From Paracoccus sphaerophysae (GTDB taxonomy: Bacteria > Pseudomonadota > Alphaproteobacteria > Rhodobacterales > Rhodobacteraceae), in NCBI RefSeq assembly GCF_000763805.1, contig NZ_JRKS01000001.1:1-64000 (forward strand): a stretch of 64,000 nucleotides of DNA, in the 5' to 3' direction. Shown in pieces: positions 1 through 8,248 of the stretch. Both the position numbers and the translations under genes were made by a program. Each line of letters begins with the position of its first letter. The first letter of the stretch is position 1. The notes under the pieces were generated by a model. That model had not been told where the DNA came from, made no database searches, and was given only the letters and a program-made list of their open reading frames with translations.

Positions 1-259
1 CGTCCTTCAGCGCCTCGATCCGCAGGTGGCCGTCCAGCAGCAACCAGGTCGCGGACTTGTCGGGGTTCCGGACGACGACGGGCGGCTCGACGATCCCGAT
101 CTGGGCGATGGAAGCCACGATCTGCCGGTACTTCCGGCTGGATTTCGCGGACTTGCCAAGAGCGCGCAGCGGCAGGATCGCGTCGATTGGGAGGGTGACG
201 CAGTCGTCCTCGAACCCGAGCGTGACGCTCTTCGGGACGTCGCGAGCGTCGCGCTTCAT
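1..259 (-). CDS. ParB-like nuclease-domain protein, partial
   Basis: The first 86 codons are visible; the rest lies off the left edge. The translation starts MKRDARDVPKSV and contains VTLPIDAILPLRALGKS, then an IAQIGIVEPPVVV segment and LDGHLRIEALKD, which match the start of a ParB/Spo0J N-terminal domain (promoter-like 'I..I.P....R' entry and the DGHLR nucleotide-binding loop). Its ATG overlaps the stop of the upstream ParB-like gene as ATGA, so the two are probably translationally coupled, and both follow the serine recombinase. The function is unknown. A partition role is possible, but a regulator or DNA-bridging partner of the recombinase is equally compatible. Confidence 0.75.
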   Translation of the reverse strand, partial: MKRDARDVPKSVTLGFEDDCVTLPIDAILPLRALGKSAKSSRKYRQIVASIAQIGIVEPPVVVRNPDKSATWLLLDGHLRIEALKD

Positions 260-1164
260 GCCAATGTCCCCTCGGTCACGGACCGCGCGAGATCGGCGGG
301 CATCGTCTCAAGCCCCTCCGCCCGGAGCAGGGTCATGAAATGCGCATCCGCACAGAGCTTGCGGAAGGCCTCGCGGACGAAGATCAGCCGGCTCTGGGTG
401 AGCTCGGCCTTCTTGATCAGAAGCTTCTGGCGCGTGGCTTCCTGCTGATACGCCCGGACAAGGCCCTCGCTCGTCAGCGCCCGTTTCGGAGGCTTGCGTC
501 CGAGTTGGTTGCTGTGGAGCTGCGGGCCGCGCAGTTCGCGCTGCTGAATCAGGCGGCGCACCAGCGCCAGCTTCCGTCCCCGCAGCTTGTTCTGAGTATA
601 GGCGTCCATCAGTGCCTTCTGTGCGCCCTTGGCGTCCGTCTTGGAAATTTGGATGGCCAGATTCAGCGGAAGCACCCCGGTTTCCACGGCCGAGACCAAG
701 CGCTCCTCGCCTTTCTCCAGCAGCCCCGCGATCATGTTCACATATTCGGTGGAAACGCCGATCTTCTCGCCGATCTGACGGTCGTTGTAGCCGCGCTGGC
801 GGAGCGCGCCGATCTCGCGCATCAGGTCGATGGGGTTGTGCTGCCGCCGCGCACAGTTCTCGACGAGGCTCATCACGAGGCAATCGCTCTCGTCAGCGTC
901 GATCACAATGGCGGGGATGTGGTCCTGCCTCAGTTCGACGAAGGCCTCGAGGCGGCCCTGACCGCAGACGAGGTCGTACTCCTGCGGATCGGTCCCGGGG
1001 CGCGGTGCCACGGTGATCGGGCGCTTCAGGCCGATGCGCGCGATATTCTCCACCATCGCCTCGAACGTGCGACGGTTGCGGACACGGGGATTGAGAACCC
1101 GTATCCGTTCGGTCGGGATCAGGGTCACCTGCTTTTGGCTGGTCGGTTCCATGTCGTCGGGCAT
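256..1164 (-). CDS. ParB/RepB-like protein of recombinase cassette
   Basis: This 302-residue protein has a ParB N-terminal domain (about residues 12-110: LIPTERIRVLNPRVRNRRTF, GLKRPITVAP, then the CGQGRLEAF loop). An HTH follows around DRQIGEKIGVSTEYVNMI, with a 'LVENCARRQHNPIDLMREI' helix before it. The C-terminal half is helical and basic and resembles the RepB C-terminal domain. The ATG overlaps the recombinase stop (TGATG) and its own stop overlaps the next ParB-like start (ATGA), giving a tight three-gene unit. Classic ParB proteins bind DNA and CTP in plasmid or chromosome partition. Without a ParA nearby a different, recombinase-linked role is likely (inference). Identity as ParB-like is fairly sure; function is not. 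Confidence 0.85.
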   Translation of the reverse strand: MPDDMEPTSQKQVTLIPTERIRVLNPRVRNRRTFEAMVENIARIGLKRPITVAPRPGTDPQEYDLVCGQGRLEAFVELRQDHIPAIVIDADESDCLVMSLVENCARRQHNPIDLMREIGALRQRGYNDRQIGEKIGVSTEYVNMIAGLLEKGEERLVSAVETGVLPLNLAIQISKTDAKGAQKALMDAYTQNKLRGRKLALVRRLIQQRELRGPQLHSNQLGRKPPKRALTSEGLVRAYQQEATRQKLLIKKAELTQSRLIFVREAFRKLCADAHFMTLLRAEGLETMPADLARSVTEGTLA

Positions 1165-2735
1165 CACGCCACCTCCGCGATCCTGGCCCGCGAGGCGAGC
1201 GCGTAGAAGAAATCGAGCGTGTCGAACCGGTACGCATCTAGAGCGAGGCCGTTTTGCTCGGCGAATTTCAGTTTCGCGAATGTCATGTCGATGCTGGGCA
1301 GCACGAAATAGTCGCGCGGCGCCTCGTTCAACTCGTCCATGCGTACGGCGATGGTGATGTCCGGCACCAGGCCAGTGTCGAGGCGGATGCGCCAGCGCAG
1401 CGACCCGGCCGCCGTCGCGGTGCAGCGGGCCAGAACGATGGACACAGTGAACTCGTCGTTGACGCGCACCAGATCGGTGTCTGGGTCCTGTACGGCCGAC
1501 CCGCCGTGTCGGGTGATGCCGGCGATGATTTGGGCCACGACCTGCGGATGCGCCTGCCGCAGCGCCCGGTTCACCTCGATGTAACTGTAGTCGCGGTCCG
1601 GCTCGTAGCCGATCAGACGATAGGCGCGCAGGAGGCTGCCGAAGCGGCTGCGATAGGCACTGGAGGACGGCAGGTCGTCCTCCTCGTCGATGATTAGGCC
1701 CGAAAGCACGCCCTGTCGCTGAAGGATTGCGCGCAGCGCGTCGAGCAGTTCCTCGTCCGAGAAATGCCGGCTTCGGGCGTCCACGATTTCCCGCGCACGC
1801 AGGAAGAGCGCCTGATCGACGATTGCCGGATAAGCGCCCTCGGCCCGGATCCACATCTCGCGCGGGTTCACCACGCGGCGCTGCTTCAGCTTGAAGGACA
1901 CCTTGTTGAAGACGTTGTTCCCGATGTATTTTTCGTTGGTCAGCACCTGATGGACGGTCGCCCGGGTCCACGGTCGGTCGAGATCGGTGCGGTGCCCTTC
2001 GGAGTTCAGAAGCTCCGCGATCTCGCGCTCGGACCGCTCCTCGTTCACGAACATCTCGTACATGCGCTGGACGACCCGCCGTTCCTCCTCGGGGCCGGGG
2101 ACCAGGATGACGCGGTCGGTCTGAAGGCTCTTCTGCTCGCCGCGGGACAGTTCGCCCTTGGGGTTGCCGTGCTCGTCGATCAGCACCCGCCGCAGCCCGT
2201 ATCCTGCCGCGCCGCCCTGGCGATAGCCCAGCTCGACGAGGCGGCACTGCCCGGCGAAGACCTTCACCGACAACTCGCGGCTGTACTCGCCGGCCATCAC
2301 GCGCTTCACGGTTTTCAGGAGGTTCGAGCCGATGCTGCCGTCGTTCTCGAACTGCTCGCCGCAGTAGTGCACCCGGATCCCGGCGCGGGAACAGACATGC
2401 TCGTGATAGGCGCCTTCATCAGCGTCCTGAAACCGGCCCCAGCGGCTGACGTCATAGACGAGGATCGCCTTGAAATCGGCCTGGCCGGATTGCACCTCGG
2501 CCATCAGGTTCTGCAGCGCCTCCCGGCCATCGAGCCGCAGCCCGGAACGCCCTGAATCCTCGAACACACGCAGGATCTGCAGGCCGCGGGCGGCGGCATA
2601 GCTGCGGATGACGTCCAGCTGGTTCTCGGTCGAATACTTCTGGTGATCGGTCGACATCCGGACGTATGCGACGGCGGGCACGTCGGGCTCTGATTGGCTG
2701 GCGCCAGTCTCCCTGCTTGCCTCACGCCCTCGCAT
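1164..2735 (-). CDS. Large serine recombinase
   Basis: This 523-residue site-specific recombinase of the serine integrase/resolvase superfamily is intact. The resolvase catalytic domain runs from about residue 20 to 170: YVRMSTDHQKYSTENQ carries the likely nucleophile Ser28, and SGRSG, VYDVSRWGR and ELSVKV are the usual companion motifs. A recombinase domain follows around residues 180-310 (GYGLRRVL, EREIAELLNSEG, VHQVLTNEKYIGN). The C-terminal 200 residues show no obvious zinc ribbon and no family I can name. It would cut and rejoin DNA at paired att or res sites. It heads the ParB-like cassette and faces a divergent HTH-like gene across a palindrome-rich spacer, a likely place for its regulation. 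Confidence 0.9.
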   Translation of the reverse strand: MRGREASRETGASQSEPDVPAVAYVRMSTDHQKYSTENQLDVIRSYAAARGLQILRVFEDSGRSGLRLDGREALQNLMAEVQSGQADFKAILVYDVSRWGRFQDADEGAYHEHVCSRAGIRVHYCGEQFENDGSIGSNLLKTVKRVMAGEYSRELSVKVFAGQCRLVELGYRQGGAAGYGLRRVLIDEHGNPKGELSRGEQKSLQTDRVILVPGPEEERRVVQRMYEMFVNEERSEREIAELLNSEGHRTDLDRPWTRATVHQVLTNEKYIGNNVFNKVSFKLKQRRVVNPREMWIRAEGAYPAIVDQALFLRAREIVDARSRHFSDEELLDALRAILQRQGVLSGLIIDEEDDLPSSSAYRSRFGSLLRAYRLIGYEPDRDYSYIEVNRALRQAHPQVVAQIIAGITRHGGSAVQDPDTDLVRVNDEFTVSIVLARCTATAAGSLRWRIRLDTGLVPDITIAVRMDELNEAPRDYFVLPSIDMTFAKLKFAEQNGLALDAYRFDTLDFFYALASRARIAEVA

Positions 2736-2774
2736 CTGCCCGGCTCCAGTTCACGTCGCAGCAATCCGGTCGGG

Positions 2775-2861
2775 ACGGTCCGGACCGTTGTGCATGCTGC
2801 CGCGATCATTCGAGCATGCGAGCGCCGGAAAGTCGTTTCCGGAAAAGGGCAATTCCTTTCC
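2775..2861. repeat. Cluster of palindromes in divergent spacer
   Basis: Three kinds of dyad lie in the 321-bp spacer between the recombinase start (2735) and the divergent gene (3057). A perfect 14-bp palindrome ACGGTCCGGACCGT is at 2775-2788. GCATGC occurs twice, at 2792-2797 and 2814-2819. A perfect stem CCGGAAA/TTTCCGG with a 4-nt loop is at 2825-2842, followed by GGAAAAGG/CCTTTCC at 2841-2861. These are candidates for operators or for recombination sites of the adjacent recombinase. No gene is visible in the rest of the spacer. Confidence 0.6.
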
Positions 2862-3056
2862 GTGCTCGCCGCATTGGCGGATACCCTGCAGCGCGCGGCC
2901 GTCCACGCGCTCGATCATCTCCGGTCCCGTTTCGCAGTTCATATCGGCCACCTTCAAGTGAGTGGTCCGTTCCAACAGGCGGCTAAACAGAACCGCCGCG
3001 GGAACAGATGGATTCTGCCGTTTTCATGGCTCTCCAAAGATTTAGCGGAGAGAAAC

Positions 3057-3380
3057 ATGAAGATGCGCGTGAAGATGGGCACAGTTTTGCCGAAGATGGG
3101 CACAGTTGTGCACCTCGATGAGATCCCCAGCGACTATCGCGCCGCCATGGCCGTGGCATTGCACGCTGAGCTCGGATCGACCCACCGGGCGATCAAGTCC
3201 GCCATGCGGTGGACAGGTGCCAGCGAGCGGACCGTGAAATACTGGTTCGCGGGCGAGCGGGGGCCGAGCGGCGATCACCTCGTGTCGCTCGCGCGTCATT
3301 CCGATGTCGTGCTGATCGCACTGCTCGCGCTGGCAGGCCGGTTGATTGTGGAGGAGGCCGAGGACCAGCAGCGCCGATAG
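3057..3380 (+). CDS. Small HTH-like protein of mobile cassette
   Basis: This is a 107-residue protein. The start at 3057 is supported by GGAG six bases upstream, but in-frame ATGs at 3063, 3075 and 3096 are possible. The N-terminus contains the repeated peptide KMGTV because of a 16-bp direct DNA repeat. The segment STHRAIKSAMRWTGASERTV followed by KYWFAGERGPSGDHL looks like a helix-turn-helix (an 'A..TGASERTVKYW' recognition helix), so a DNA-binding role is likely. It is divergent from the recombinase and could be the cassette's repressor (inference). I recall relatives in alphaproteobacterial islands but no characterised member. Confidence 0.7.
   Translation: MKMRVKMGTVLPKMGTVVHLDEIPSDYRAAMAVALHAELGSTHRAIKSAMRWTGASERTVKYWFAGERGPSGDHLVSLARHSDVVLIALLALAGRLIVEEAEDQQRR
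3071..3107 (+). repeat. 16-bp tandem direct repeat, 21-bp period
   Basis: GAAGATGGGCACAGTT occurs at 3071-3086 and again at 3092-3107. The period of 21 bp is two turns of B-DNA, which would put both copies on one face of the helix. The repeats sit at the very 5' end of the HTH-like gene and encode the KMGTV-KMGTV peptide. Confidence 0.85.
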
Positions 3381-3463: not shown

Positions 3464-3718
3464 ATGCCTCGCACCACCACCATGACCGTTCGCGTGAGCG
3501 GCGCCCTCAGCGAGTTCGTTGCGGCCAACGTCGGCGAGGACGGCGCCTACGAGAACGTGAGCGAGTATATCCGTGACCTGATCCGTCGCGACAAGGAGCG
3601 TGCGGAGCGCGAAGCGTTCGATCGTCTGAAGGCCGAACTGAATCGTGCCTTCGCCGCGCCCGAGGACAGCTACAAGCCGCTGACCGCTGCTGAGGTGATC
3701 GCCCGGAACCGGACCTGA
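3464..3718 (+). CDS. parD: ParD-type antitoxin
   Basis: This 84-residue protein begins MPRTTTMTVRVSGALSEFV, a ribbon-helix-helix strand. ENVSEYIRDLIRRDKERAE follows, the 'Y.N.SEYIR.LI' signature of ParD/CopG-like antitoxins. An acidic, flexible C-terminus would wrap the toxin. It ends 4 bp before parE and has a good upstream GGAG. In this family the antitoxin neutralises ParE and represses the operon. The start was chosen at 3464 because upstream sequence has no homology and the purine-rich GGGAGAG lies just ahead. Confidence 0.9.
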   Translation: MPRTTTMTVRVSGALSEFVAANVGEDGAYENVSEYIRDLIRRDKERAEREAFDRLKAELNRAFAAPEDSYKPLTAAEVIARNRT

Positions 3719-3722
3719 GCCC

Positions 3723-4031
3723 ATGGCGATCCGGGTCCAGGAGGCGGCCTCACTGCGTCTCGACGAGATCTACCGATACACCCGCGACCGCTGGGGCGAT
3801 GCGCAGTCCGAAACCTACATCACCAATCTGTTCGCCGCCTTCGAACAGATCGAGACACGCGGCGTCATGTCGAGGCCCGTGCCGGCCGAATTCGGAGTGG
3901 AGGGGTATTTCTTCCGCTACGAGCGGCATTTTGTGTGTTGGAGGCACCTCTCCAACGGCGACATCGGCATTGTCACGATCCTCCACGAGCGGATGCATCA
4001 GTTTGATCGTCTCAAGGAGGATTTCGGTTAA
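3723..4031 (+). CDS. parE: ParE-type toxin
   Basis: This 102-residue RelE/ParE superfamily toxin starts MAIRVQEAASLRLDEIYRYT. It has the family's core pattern: a long N-terminal helix pair, SRPVPAEFGVEGYFFRYERH in the middle strands, and a C-terminal IVTILHERMH-DRL tail. ParE members poison DNA gyrase; the closely related RelE members cleave mRNA, and the target cannot be decided from sequence. It lies 4 bp after parD, a standard antitoxin-first operon, and probably helps keep the island in the chromosome. Confidence 0.88.
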   Translation: MAIRVQEAASLRLDEIYRYTRDRWGDAQSETYITNLFAAFEQIETRGVMSRPVPAEFGVEGYFFRYERHFVCWRHLSNGDIGIVTILHERMHQFDRLKEDFG

Positions 4032-4404
4032 GTCCCAGTCCAGAAGTAATTTTTCTGGATAGCGCGGGTACTGCGGCCTACGGGTCAGACTTGGAGAACG
4101 TTGGATTCCGGTCCCGCTCCCTCCGCCAGTTCCCTTCAAGGAATCGTTCTCCCGATCCCGCCGCGGCCGGATTTTCCCGTTGCTTTCGAGGGTTATGCGC
4201 GGTTGACTTTGCACTGGCGTCCTCGCTGCAGCAGCCGGAATGGTTCTCTAAAGCCCGATATTCTCCGGACCTCTCGACTACTAGCATCCGGTGTAGAGCC
4301 CGTAACCGATTGAAAATATTGGGGCAGATCCTCGCGCCACCTGAACACTTCGACGCCGGTGGCGTTCGTGAGATGGAACAGAAATCGAACTCCTGCAGCG
4401 AGCT
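4032..4404. other. Gene-poor spacer with degraded sequence
   Basis: No convincing gene is seen between parE and the metallopeptidase remnant. Reading frames on both strands are open in places, but none has a recognisable domain or ribosome binding site. The one notable piece is a tRNA 3'-end-like string at 4103-4128. The composition is more AT-rich around 4300-4330 than the core genes. Confidence 0.6.
4103..4128 (+). other. tRNA-Ser 3'-end-like fragment, possible att remnant
   Basis: GGATTCCGGTCCCGCTCCCTCCGCCA ends with 17 bases (TCCCGCTCCCTCCGCCA) that look like the T-stem end, acceptor strand and CCA of a bacterial tRNA-Ser. The T-loop region is altered, and no 5' tRNA half precedes it. 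Tyrosine integrases often copy such a tail at an element's far end, so this may be an old attachment-site scar. Chance resemblance in GC-rich DNA is possible. Confidence 0.3.
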
Positions 4405-4665: not shown

Positions 4666-4717
4666 CCGAGAGCTTGACCAATTCCCACCCGTCAGGGAGA
4701 GCTTCCGCGGCACTCAT
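4666..4717 (-). pseudogene. hsdS: hsdS remnant, first codons only
   Basis: An ATG at 4717 overlaps the hsdM stop (ATGA). The first residues, MSAAEALPDGWELVKLSDG, read like the start of a type I specificity subunit ('LP.GW....L.D'). Beyond about codon 17 the sequence changes frame and becomes YgjP-like metallopeptidase DNA; the hsdS frame itself runs on without homology to a stop at 4523. Real HsdS proteins are about 400 residues with two target-recognition domains, all lost here. The modification enzyme therefore has no specificity subunit in this locus. Confidence 0.75.
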
Positions 4718-7151
4718 CCCGCCACCCCCATCGCCGCCAGATGCCCGGCCACCCGCACATCCAGCCCGACCAGATCCTTCATGATCTGCGGCAGGGTCTG
4801 GCCATAGCGTTCGGTCAGCACCCGCACGCGGGCGGTGAGCGTTTCCGTCCGCGCCTCGACCTCGGCCCCGATGGCAGCGGTGATGTCGGCCAGCCACTTG
4901 TCCTGCACCACAAGGGTCTGGATTTCGCCCATCGTCAGGGTGGGGTATTTCTTCAGCACGGCCTCGGTCAGCCGGGCCTCGGCCTCTTTCGCCGCGCGCT
5001 TCGCCTCGGCCTCGCTTTCGAACAGCGCGGCCACCTGTTTCAGCAGGGCCTTTTCGTCTGGCTCCAGGCCCCTGTCCTTCAGCCGCGCCTTCACCCCGCC
5101 CGCCGTCAGCTTGGCCCCATCGGCCATCAGTTCCTCGAACAGCCCGCCCTCGGCCCCGTGTTCTTCGGCCAGTTCTTCGATCTCGCGCCCCAGTTCCTCG
5201 GCCCGGGCGGTGGCCTGATCCAGCGCCGCCTTGAGGCCGGCAAAGAAGCGCGCGGTGATCAGGGCTGGCGGGATCACGTCGGCCACAAGGCGGACCTTGT
5301 TCACCGTCAGGTCGCCCTCTTCCAGCCATGTCACCTTGCCGTCGTCGCTGGTCTCTTTTCGCGCCTCGCGCAACTCGCGCGCCGCCAGCCAGCCGCCGCC
5401 CGCGATGATGAACACATCGTCCTGCATGGTGGTGGCCCAATAGGCCATCAGGCGCTGATAGGCCTCATACTTGTCGACGAGGGGGGCGGCGTCGAAGCGG
5501 GTGAGCATATCCTCGGCAATGGTGTGGATCAGGTCGCGCGGGTGGTCGCCTTGGCTGATGCCCATCAGGAGAGGGGTGTTGGCGGTGATCCAGCCGTCCA
5601 GGATCGCCGCGACCTGCGCGCGGAAGGCCGCGAAATCCGCATGGTTGCGGATGGTCGCGCGCACCTGATCGGGCACCACCAGCGGATCGGCATAGCCCGG
5701 GCGCGGGTTCGGCCCGAAGAGAGTGGCACGCAGCGTGGGCATCACGGCCCAGAACTCGCCCAGCGCGTCAATATCCCGCTCCGGCACGCCGCCATGCAGG
5801 TGGGCGGTGATGTCCTGCAGATCCTCGGGGTCGGAGCCGTCGATGTAGCGGGGGATGTTCAGGTTGAAGTCGTTGCGGGCGATCTCGTCGAATGGCACGA
5901 GGCGGGAATAGCCGGGGATCGTCTGCTGGCGGGTGAAGGCGTCGATGATCTTGTGGATGTCACGCTCGCGCAGGCGGTTCTTGTTGCCGTCCTTGATGAA
6001 GCCCCTGGAGGCGTCGATCATGAAGACGGGGCGGTTGGCGATAGCCTCGGACTTGTCGAGCACGATGATCGAGGCGGGGATGCCGGTGCCGTAGAACAGG
6101 TTGGCGGGCAGGCCGATGACGCCCTTGATGTAGCCGCGTTTCAGGATCTTTTCGCGAAGCTTTGCCTCGGCATTGCCGCGGAACAGCACGCCGTGCGGCA
6201 GAATGACCGCGCCTGATCCGGTCGCCTTCATCGAGGCGAGGATGTGCAGAAGGAAGGCGAAATCGCCGTTCTTGGCGGGCGGTTCGCCATCGTCGAAGCG
6301 GCCGTATTTCGTCTCGGCCGTCTCCCCGCGGCCCAGGCCTTGGCCGAGAAGGGCGGGTTGGCTACGACGAAGTCGAAGGTCTGCAGGGTGTGGGCATCGG
6401 CCAGGAAATGCGGTTCGGCGATGACATCGCCCTGCGCGATCTCGGCCGTGGCGCGGTTGTGCATGATCATATTCATGCGCGCCAGGCCGCGGGTGGCGAT
6501 GTCCATCTCCTGCCCGAAGATGGTGATGGGCACGCGGGCGGTCTCGGCAGCTTTCAGCAGCAGCGAGCCCGAGCCGCAGGTCGGGTCGTAGGCGGTTTGC
6601 TTCGGGCTGGTCGCGCGGCTGACGCCCGCCACGGCGGCGACGACGCGCGACACCTCGGCCGGGGTATAGAACTGTCCCTTGGATTTGCCCGCCTCTGTCG
6701 CGAAGTTGCGCATCAGGTATTCGTAGGCGTCGCCGAGGATGTCGTCGCCGTCAGCCCGGTTCTTCGAGAAATTCAACTCTTCACGGCTGAAGATGTTGAT
6801 CAGCGCGGTCAGCGTGTTGATCATCTTCTGGCCGCGTCCGAACTTCTCTGCGTCGTTGAAGAAGGCCCGGTCGATCACGCCGCTGAGGTCATTCTCCTCG
6901 GCGATGCGGGCGATGATCGTGTCCATCCCCTCGCCGATGTTCTTGGACCCGCGCAGGGCCTTCATGTCATCGAAGGATGCGCCTGGCGGCACCTCGATCA
7001 ACGCGTCGGGCTGGCCCGCGCGGTCGGAGACGTATTTCACAAAGAGAAGGGTGAGGATGTAATCCTTGTAAAGCGAGGCATCCATGCCGCCGCGAAGCTG
7101 GTCGCAGCTTTCCCAAAGGGATCGGTATATGTCGCTCTTCTTGATGGCCAA
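4714..7151 (-). pseudogene. hsdM: Type I restriction-modification methylase HsdM, frameshifted
   Basis: Together the two frames give an almost complete HsdM of about 812 residues. The start is a TTG at 7151 with AGGGG six bases upstream, giving (M)AIKKSDIYRSLWESCDQLRGG, the usual HsdM opening. The SAM motif DPTCGSGSLLL and the catalytic NPPF are present. Just after NPPFSAKAWAAG the reading frame is lost in a run of four C on the plus strand (6324-6327). Restoring one base reconnects it to the second frame, which continues with the expected KYGRFDDGEPPAKNGDFAF and a long coiled C-terminus. The 2438-bp span is one short of a codon multiple. With hsdS and hsdR gone, the system is probably dead; a sequencing error in the C run is the alternative. 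Confidence 0.85.
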
Positions 7152-7222
7152 TTGATGCCCCTGCCAATTTCTGATGCCCCATCTTGGCGGCACGGTTTGG
7201 ATAGGGTGCTCAGGGGATTGCG

Positions 7223-7603
7223 CTATCTATCCGATGTCTGTCTTGACCATTCAACCGGAAACGGCTCCAGAACCCGCGCAAGTGTCAACTCCGGCCGCTG
7301 CCTTCCATCCAGGATCGCCTCAACGATATCTGGCGCCAGAAGGGTCAGGTGCAAGAGGCGAGCCATGTAAGTGAAGGCGATCCCTTCCATCTCAGCCAGT
7401 TCGGAAATCGACGCGAACTCGCCCGAGTCCAGCATCCGCTTCCAGCGAAACGCGCGGGCCAGTGCCTTGACGAGTGCGTCATCGGGGCGGCGCGGGGTGG
7501 ACGCGCCTTCGGGCAACTGCATCTCCTTCCGCCCCCCACGCTTCACGAGGCGGAACGGGACATGGATGGTGACAGTATCGGGGACCGGGGTGGCGCGGGT
7601 CAT
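7223..7603 (-). CDS. Conserved recombinase-tail protein
   Basis: This 126-residue protein is the usual companion of a group of alphaproteobacterial serine recombinases. Recognisable stretches are VPFRLVKRGGRKEMQLPEG, DALVKALARAFRWKRML and ISELAEMEGIAFTYMARLL, a helix-turn-helix, followed by LTLLAPDIVEAILDG and LARVLEPFPVEW. The HTH suggests DNA binding, perhaps as a directionality or regulatory factor (inference). Its ATG at 7603 overlaps the truncated recombinase stop (ATGA), so it was translated from the recombinase message. The gene looks complete although its partner is not. Confidence 0.8.
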   Translation of the reverse strand: MTRATPVPDTVTIHVPFRLVKRGGRKEMQLPEGASTPRRPDDALVKALARAFRWKRMLDSGEFASISELAEMEGIAFTYMARLLHLTLLAPDIVEAILDGRQRPELTLARVLEPFPVEWSRQTSDR

Positions 7604-7995
7604 GCGGCTGCTCCTATGTCGGCGGTGATTTCGCGCGCCAGCCCGGCCAGTCCGTCCATACGCAGCCGGACGTTCAGGCCTTCCGTGACGATCTCGACCC
7701 CCTCGATCATCAGCGCCACGATGCGCGCCTGTTCGGCCGGGAAGAGTTCGTCCCACAGCGGATCCAGCCGGGTCAGCGCCGCGCGGGCGTCGGCCTCAGA
7801 GATGTCGTCGGCGTGGGCACGCGCGGCCTTCCAGGTGGCCACGACGATCTCCGGCTGGCGGAACACGGCGCGCAGCTGGTCGATGACGGTGGCCTCGTTT
7901 TCGCCGGCGGGCACGCGGCCGACCGGGCAGGACCCCGCGCCGTGCTTCAGCACTGTCTTGCTGACGTAGTACACGGCCTTGGTCGCAGTGGGCAC
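7600..7995 (-). pseudogene. C-terminal fragment of serine recombinase
   Basis: About 130 residues match the far C-terminus of Tn3/phage-like serine recombinases of the type that precedes the tail gene: KAVYYVSKTVLKHGAG, GRVPAGENEATVIDQLRAVF, then LDPLWDELFPAEQARIVALM and IVTEGLNVRLRMDGLAGL. The catalytic and DNA-binding domains are absent. Upstream of the GTG at 7995 the frame meets a stop, and no recombinase homology is seen. The break lies between about 7990 and 8040, some 130-180 bp from the tRNA-Ala end, consistent with deletion at the island edge. Confidence 0.8.
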
Positions 7996-8172
7996 GGGAG
8001 GGGAGCTGTTCAGTCACAGCGTCGCAGCTGCTACGGCAGGATTCTTTCCCACAGCCCAGCGAAGTGCGCCAGTGTCCTAGGGCGTCCAGGATGAAGTGGG
8101 GGAAGAGAAGGCGGACCTGTCTCGGCGAGACAGCACTAACGTAATGAAATGACTAGTGTAATCTTGAATATC

Positions 8173-8248
<76 letters not shown>

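Follow-up and report, generated by a model that had tools for sequence, protein, structure and literature searches.

What does a serine recombinase do in an operon with two ParB-like genes? The question is raised by the left end of the stretch of DNA analyzed here, bases 1-64000 of contig C1 in the Paracoccus sphaerophysae draft genome G000 (137 contigs), which we call the window. A serine recombinase gene (REC) and two ParB/RepB-like genes (PB1 and PB2), together the trio, lie there on the minus strand, and a small gene diverges from them; below, L-numbers denote loci and G-numbers genomes. A sequence-only reading of the window had proposed a self-contained recombination module, in which ParB-like clamps binding cytidine triphosphate (CTP) assist the recombinase and a helix-turn-helix (HTH) protein represses it. 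The three genes do overlap stop to start as described (Table 1), with TGATG shared by REC and PB1 and ATGA by PB1 and PB2, while PB2 is truncated because the edge of contig C1 falls at base 1. The answer that we regard as moderately probable is that tRNA-targeting temperate phages, and islands derived from them, use the trio as their integration/excision module, with the ParB-like partners, and perhaps an RNA, replacing the zinc-ribbon/coiled-coil domain of other large serine integrases.

REC is almost always accompanied by both ParB-like genes. Among 295 genomes of the same family, 84 have REC matches (E ≤ 1e-3) and 36 have an ortholog (a single stretch of 340 or more residues with an identity of at least 55%); PB1 adjoins REC in 36 of 40 fetched family neighborhoods, the remaining four having a truncated REC. 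A scan of GTDB gave at least 594 candidate stretches, at least 570 of them encoding a REC relative, and the best 80 were kept. In 75 of these best 80 there is room for the partners, that is, at least 3450 nucleotides (nt) from the REC start, and tblastn matches place PB1 in 73, PB2 in 72 and a gene resembling the HTH gene of the window in 62 of them. Where REC is also full length, PB1 is present in 73/73 loci and PB2 in 72/73, so this neighborhood comparison bears out the co-occurrence of the ParB-like genes with the recombinase elsewhere. The HTH gene is not a constant member: a similar gene is absent in 13/75 loci and also in all six loci of a clade associated with exopolysaccharide (EPS) genes. 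The gene itself is real, being 86-93% identical in L037, L038, L072 and L076, but only a weak match speaks for an HTH (Pfam HTH_29, E 0.11, under the cut-off).

The hosts of the best 80 GTDB loci are mostly Alphaproteobacteria; loci from Betaproteobacteria, Acidobacteriota, Verrucomicrobiota and other groups are metagenome bins, and Methylibium petroleiphilum PM1 has REC on a plasmid as well. A search of 72,556 plasmid records gave 205 with a REC match, which in 59 of them spans at least 80% of REC. All three genes are present in each of the first four annotated plasmid loci opened (two from Agrobacterium, one each from Sphingobium and Roseomonas). No ParA was visible in the window, and no ParA Walker motif (KGGxGK type) was seen in 42 stretches (40 family loci, the window and L002) whose open reading frames (ORFs) came from a rough caller. 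The Roseomonas plasmid locus L180 does have a ParA-family gene, which stands beside repA about 7.6 kb upstream of the trio. As a separate observation, Fic-family genes, some named by eye, recur next to the trio (L177, 15411-16592; L181, 6381-7991; L051-L063, about -1900 to -600), and they lie on opposite sides of it in the Agrobacterium plasmids pAtC58 and pAt1D1460.

REC was correctly recognized as a serine recombinase, as shown by its Pfam matches to Resolvase (3.5e-21) and Recombinase (PF07508, 7.6e-24); the profiles place the catalytic domain at residues 21-157 and the recombinase domain at 216-320, and Ser28 is invariant across 49 aligned REC sequences. Serine integrases rank first in a fold search (best E 1.3e-11, 316-358 columns), with template modeling (TM) scores of about 0.2-0.25, so that the likeness holds domain by domain and not overall. 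The C-terminal 200 or so residues have a sole, sub-threshold Pfam match (HNH_repeat, E 0.029, residues 326-378). A zinc ribbon was not matched in the Pfam search, and a CxxC motif occurs in the last 210 residues of 0/108 REC-family proteins. It seems that REC lacks the zinc-ribbon/coiled-coil part of large serine integrases; its predicted structure is of moderate confidence (mean predicted local distance difference test score 75.5). Profiles of IS110 and TnpB did not match REC, and a match to IS607 reached 35 bits, under the cut-off of 110. As described in parts of PMC3783163, synapsis and direction in the known large serine recombinases are controlled by the zinc-ribbon/coiled-coil domains, and integration requires no accessory protein. 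Because REC has neither a zinc-ribbon match nor a C-terminal CxxC, a clamp-like role of its ParB-type neighbors is reasonable, and the apparent lack of the coiled-coil domain strengthens the earlier idea of recombination assisted by ParB clamps.

Both partners are indeed ParB/RepB-like. PB1 matches RepB (PF07506, 3.4e-31) and ParB_N (8e-8) and aligns with structures of Spo0J/ParB, Noc and KorB (PDB profile matches including 8qa8 and 7ol9). The 86-residue PB2 fragment in the window matches ParB_N weakly (E 0.19), and the full-length PB2 of the close complete relative L037 (305 residues) has a RepB domain at 2.6e-56. In the ParB family the G-x-G-R and EN-x-x-R motifs bind CTP. PB1 retains these residues as G[QE]GR and EN-x-ARR in 32/32 family sequences, while PB2 keeps the motifs in part: it carries DG[HN]xR and TYN in 31/31 and EN-x-Q-R in 0/31, which leaves it without the Glu of the canonical EN-x-x-R box. 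PB1 is plausibly a CTP-dependent clamp, and we propose PB2 as a relative with an altered CTP site.

A structured block follows the operon. It is about 110 nt long, begins 0 to about 75 nt past the PB2 stop, and was found in 75 stretches, 55 of which were aligned (left out were near-identical copies, the spurious L070, and L069, L111 and L133). The alignment has 26 base pairs, ten of them with changes on both sides, and 97.9% of its cells pair. There are 78 two-sided cells against 21.0 (standard deviation 3.5) in shuffled alignments, none of 500 being as high, and 0-9 in slid controls. Because the pair cells include 50 G-U against 15 A-C/C-A, ten of the 15 at one pair, the operon-sense strand is read as RNA, and we regard the block as a putative transcript. 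Searches of Rfam 15 with five loci gave no match (E ≤ 0.1). A role as guide was considered and dropped, because the loops are mostly conserved, with no guide segment apparent.

The RNA block is present in 72/99 scorable REC loci. On a quick REC tree (which excluded short REC sequences and those holding a stop) it occurs to either side of the midpoint root, with 11 changes, and is therefore probably old and often lost. It occurs in 34/295 family genomes; the window genome has a single copy, off-window at G000:C34:437-560. Within 45 viral stretches with the RNA pattern, PB2 lies directly upstream in 34, a contig edge in five, and six are solitary. Many loci (40 of 73 shown) also have a long hairpin without a clear U-run about 155 nt past the RNA start. 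In L072, L073 and L224 the REC start is directly joined to the PB2 end, as if internally deleted, and the RNA is kept in L072 and L224. The solitary RNAs (L308, L310, L313, L315, L335, L336) precede convergent phage tail-like genes as judged by eye, and some have a CTATCGT-like -10 box about 25 nt upstream, also noted by eye.

The continuation of the operon points to a phage. Contig C34 of the same genome begins inside PB2 (residues 167-304 at C34:1-414, 98% identical to L037), and after the PB2 end come the RNA, HTH_17, a WYL regulator, HmaC-, HmaB- and HmaA-like genes, lysozyme, tape measure, capsid, lambda-type portal and GpA terminase. The Hma genes match PADLOC profiles (HmaC 5e-81, HmaB 4e-63, HmaA 3e-54), the HmaA-like protein scoring slightly higher against other helicase models. 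From this gene order C34 appears to be a prophage with defense cargo adjoining the integration module, and we infer that C1 and C34 join in the window genome. In Paracoccus aminovorans HPD-2 (L106) the trio and RNA are immediately followed by convergent siphovirus tail genes. According to Table 3 of PMC6536676, one of the parts of that paper used here, the HPD-2 contig holds prophage vB_PamS_PD3, of serine type and with its integration site unidentified; the start printed there is inconsistent with the printed size.

Computer-predicted viral contigs give a similar picture. Of 80 such loci 65 were tabulated, the 15 omitted, by no recorded criterion, being mostly short or of low identity, and the 53 with room carry PB1 in 53 and PB2 in 52. 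Among 49 viral contigs of at least 20 kb, 30 have REC no more than 4 kb from an end; in 21 of the 49 this is the HTH-side end, with the long part beyond PB2. In L061, L068 and L106 convergent tail genes come after the RNA, as they do in L216 past the defense cargo. The slot between the integration module and the tail genes may be a site for defense cargo. Defense-like genes stand 3' of the RNA in several loci, with profile confirmation only in C34; in L042, L043, L048, L049 and L216 a WYL-like regulator and large genes come just past it (families confirmed only in L216).

The other border of the element resembles a tRNA end. Of 20 tRNAs near the trio, in 19 of 118 loci, 18 have the 3' end toward it; these counts include related loci and so are not 20 independent cases. 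In several lineages of the window clade the left limit of homology coincides with a sequence like a tRNA-Ser 3' end, TGGCGGAGGGA..., and 15 of 40 hand-picked window-clade loci of shared ancestry have its motif TGGCGG[AT]G[AG][AG]A on the left side of the trio, against 0.17 expected from order-1 resampling. The motif occurs in 0/40, 0/40 and 0/35 copies of three control regions, and in 3 of 78 other trio loci against 0.3 expected. In L045 the boundary sequence is found on both sides of the trio, as 24 bp with 4 mismatches, its other copy being at an intact tRNA-Ser 11.5 kb off; the remaining tRNA-bearing loci were searched for the last 24 nt in duplicate, with no convincing case. In L039 the match to a relative without the trio at that place starts again, to within a base, at the 3' end of tRNA-Ser. 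A single relative could be compared in the genus of G215, with homology resuming at the tRNA-Ser 3' end and a different left flank, whereas the genus of G053 offered no second genome for an empty-site comparison. A blind search for direct repeats around the trio found little. In pAtC58 and pAt1D1460 the trio ends in imperfect direct repeats that are T-arm-like; a T-arm was rejected as general target, as 118 loci show no enrichment of the motif at the trio, and the targets therefore differ by clade. On Sphingobium plasmids the trio sits inside a hotspot with other cargo, and its ends are not fixable there. Taken over the family, then, the trio is found both at prophage ends and beside attachment-site-like borders, the window's phage part being on the other contig by the proposed link.

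According to the above-described analysis, the window would contain the left end of an integrated element with REC as its integrase; this element is probably a prophage of a temperate siphovirus, or else a prophage-derived island. The element would have been inserted at a tRNA-Ser 3' end, so that a displaced copy of that end would mark the left boundary near 4128 and the intact tRNA would be expected at the far end. PB1 and PB2 would be partners of REC, bringing attachment sites together or setting direction; the RNA at the operon 3' end may regulate or scaffold the recombination complex, the divergent HTH gene would probably repress the module, and the stretch from the RNA to the phage tail genes would often take up defense genes. 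The gene content, the co-occurrence, the covariation of the RNA, the position at prophage ends and the tRNA-like boundaries are observed, whereas we infer that REC is the catalyst at these sites, and likewise what PB1, PB2, the RNA and the HTH gene do. The linkage of PB1, PB2 and the RNA to REC argues for, without proving, a joint function, and a phage or island integration module is the simplest account of the composition, the end position and the tRNA-like borders. The idea of a recombination module therefore survives, recombination or integration being the best reading of the near-constant unit, but it had missed the structured RNA and the position at prophage and island ends. A bolder version, in which a pair of ParB-type clamps and an operon RNA control synapsis and direction in place of a coiled coil and directionality factor, would define a new class of recombination machine in tRNA-targeting phages and defense islands of Alphaproteobacteria and beyond; we offer it tentatively and think it unlikely as a whole.

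Several observations weigh against the integration-module account. A second partial copy in the window genome (G000:C25:37699-39454; L002, L226), which holds REC residues 327-523, PB1 and the PB2 start with a DUF3489-like gene ahead (by eye), could join C34 in place of C1. PB1 of HPD-2 has an in-frame stop, the printed end of vB_PamS_PD3 (179,000; PMC6536676, seen in part) lies within PB2, and only 16 of the 53 viral loci with room show the RNA pattern. Nine of the 30 viral contigs with REC near an end are arranged the other way, with the long side upstream of REC and the contig ending in or just past the trio; the layout thus varies, and assembly breaks may account for some of the ends. The boundary motif was picked after viewing some of its loci, both it and the tRNA orientations derive from related loci, and no clean empty site with both flanks was found. 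The RNA and trio can also part company, as shown by the six solitary viral RNAs without PB2 upstream and by four of the 34 RNA-bearing family genomes (G119, G125, G245, G282) without a REC match; two of these four have weak RNA scores (88 and 53 bits), the G282 copy is at a contig edge, and the stretches around the four copies hold only a PB2 piece, in G245. Finally, the REC clade of L056, L063, L064, L066, L067 and L071, without RNA or HTH gene, is fixed at EPS clusters, upstream of a MarR-type EPS regulator-like gene in 6/6 loci and beside a NusG/RfaH-like gene in 5/6 (by eye). The trio is possibly domesticated there; L071 and the PB1 of L066 appear broken.

These points bear on the main rival, in which the trio is an independent transposon-like element of about 4 kb that settles by prophages and tRNA islands, the prophage integrase being another recombinase. 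The trio of pAtC58 and pAt1D1460 forms a 3.9-kb element without internal phage genes, bounded by imperfect direct repeats and set in unrelated flanks; there are sharp homology limits around it in several genera, and L039 and L045 have a second serine recombinase-like gene by the tRNA that could be the true integrase. The solitary RNAs ahead of phage tail genes and the published prophage edge inside PB2 fit such an element too, and the HPD-2 stop together with the nine reversed contigs shifts a little weight toward it. Nevertheless, an independent settler does not readily explain why REC lies so often within 4 kb of a viral contig end, why the RNA-then-tail layout is so regular (L061, L068, L106, and L216 past its cargo), or why the boundaries are tRNA-like with tRNAs facing the trio, and we consider it a serious but rather unlikely explanation.

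The structured block raises a different possibility, that of an attC-like folded single-stranded recombination site, with the trio as an integron-like platform capturing defense cassettes. Its place between trio and variable cargo, its strongly conserved structure and its copies without the trio would suit such a site, but the G-U excess on the operon strand fits RNA, no arrays were seen (one exact pattern match per locus), and we know of no serine recombinase that uses folded single strands; we judge this very unlikely. More improbable still is a function of PB1 and PB2 in partition or copy control, for a plasmid-like circular form of the element in which REC merely resolves dimers. The RepB/ParB domains speak for it, as do the trio copies on plasmids, including L180 with its ParA-family gene in a 20-kb neighborhood; against it stand the 42 stretches without a ParA Walker motif and the PB1 score against NCBIfam partition_RepB, the RepB of RepABC, which at 32.5 bits stays far under the cut-off of 201.5. 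The integration module thus remains the reading that we prefer.

In the window itself the module had been drawn as ending at 3380, but the element is longer, with the antitoxin-like and ParE-family genes beyond that base and the boundary at about 4128 (Table 1). The antitoxin-like gene had no match in a Pfam search. The element is adjoined by hsdM, a Type I restriction methyltransferase gene (4714-7193, minus strand) that appears broken into two abutting ORFs, each with part of N6_Mtase. Between 4405 and 4713 on the minus strand a small ORF with a HEMAH motif resembles, by eye, a fragment of a zinc metallopeptidase. A remnant resembling another serine recombinase (7223-8248, by eye) lies beside tRNA-Ala (8173-8248), which seems by eye to border a second, stacked island ahead of the chromosomal genes.

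Table 1. Features at the left end of the window
Feature	Coordinates	Strand	Description
REC	1164..2735	-	523 aa serine recombinase; catalytic and recombinase domains
PB1	256..1164	-	302 aa; ParB_N and RepB domain; G-x-G-R and EN-x-x-R-R motifs
PB2	1..259	-	Second ParB/RepB-like gene; N-terminal 86 aa only; runs off the contig
Divergent small HTH-like gene	3057..3380	+	107 aa; putative regulator
Antitoxin-like gene	3464..3718	+	84 aa; ParD position
ParE-family toxin gene	3723..4031	+	102 aa; PF05016 7e-8; inside the element
Element end	4096..4128	+	Degenerate tRNA-Ser 3'-end-like sequence, attL-like; homology to several related elements stops nearby

Serine integrases are genome-engineering tools, for which site choice and direction are a central question. 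A widespread branch that seemingly lacks the synapsis and direction domain, and has two ParB-type partners and often an RNA, is a natural test of that domain's role. The module would tie ParB-type clamps to recombination, and the trio marks a slot where phages load defense systems such as Hma. It might also supply the integrase of some of the Paracoccus prophages for which parts of PMC6536676 give serine recombinases and no identified integration site. No published description of the trio, or of its combination with the RNA, was found in the open-access PMC literature, and the parts seen of the papers on phage WO, VarioGold and the Paracoccus virome (PMC6536676) mention serine recombinases and ParB separately. 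In the phage databases, REC matches PHROG 95 (integrase, 1.9e-58), PB1 matches PHROG 3951 (5e-31) and the PB2 fragment PHROG 31451 (3.4e-13), the latter two without assigned function, and these families carry no account of joint action. All three genes were matched in one of 50,697 deposited phage records, the 7.5-kb fragment MT837206.1.

Among known systems, the bridge RNA of IS110 and the omega RNA of IS607/IS605 likewise pair a mobile-element recombinase with an adjacent structured RNA. However, REC has no IS110 or TnpB match, and the loops of the trio RNA are mostly conserved, with no apparent guide segment. PB1 and PB2 resemble the ParB and RepB of ParABS and RepABC in their ParB_N and RepB domains and in the motif residues kept by PB1, but they differ in having no ParA partner, in sharing an operon with a recombinase and, for PB2, in the missing Glu of EN-x-x-R. 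KorB and Noc, which have a homologous N-terminal domain, are a precedent for ParB-type clamps outside partition, acting in transcription or nucleoid occlusion; to our knowledge, neither works with recombinases. The closest relatives of REC are the large serine integrases of the A118, phiC31, Bxb1 and SPbeta type, with which it shares the catalytic and recombinase domains, the best fold matches and the location at prophage ends, and from which it is set apart by the absence of a zinc-ribbon match and C-terminal CxxC and by two nearly constant ParB-like partners.

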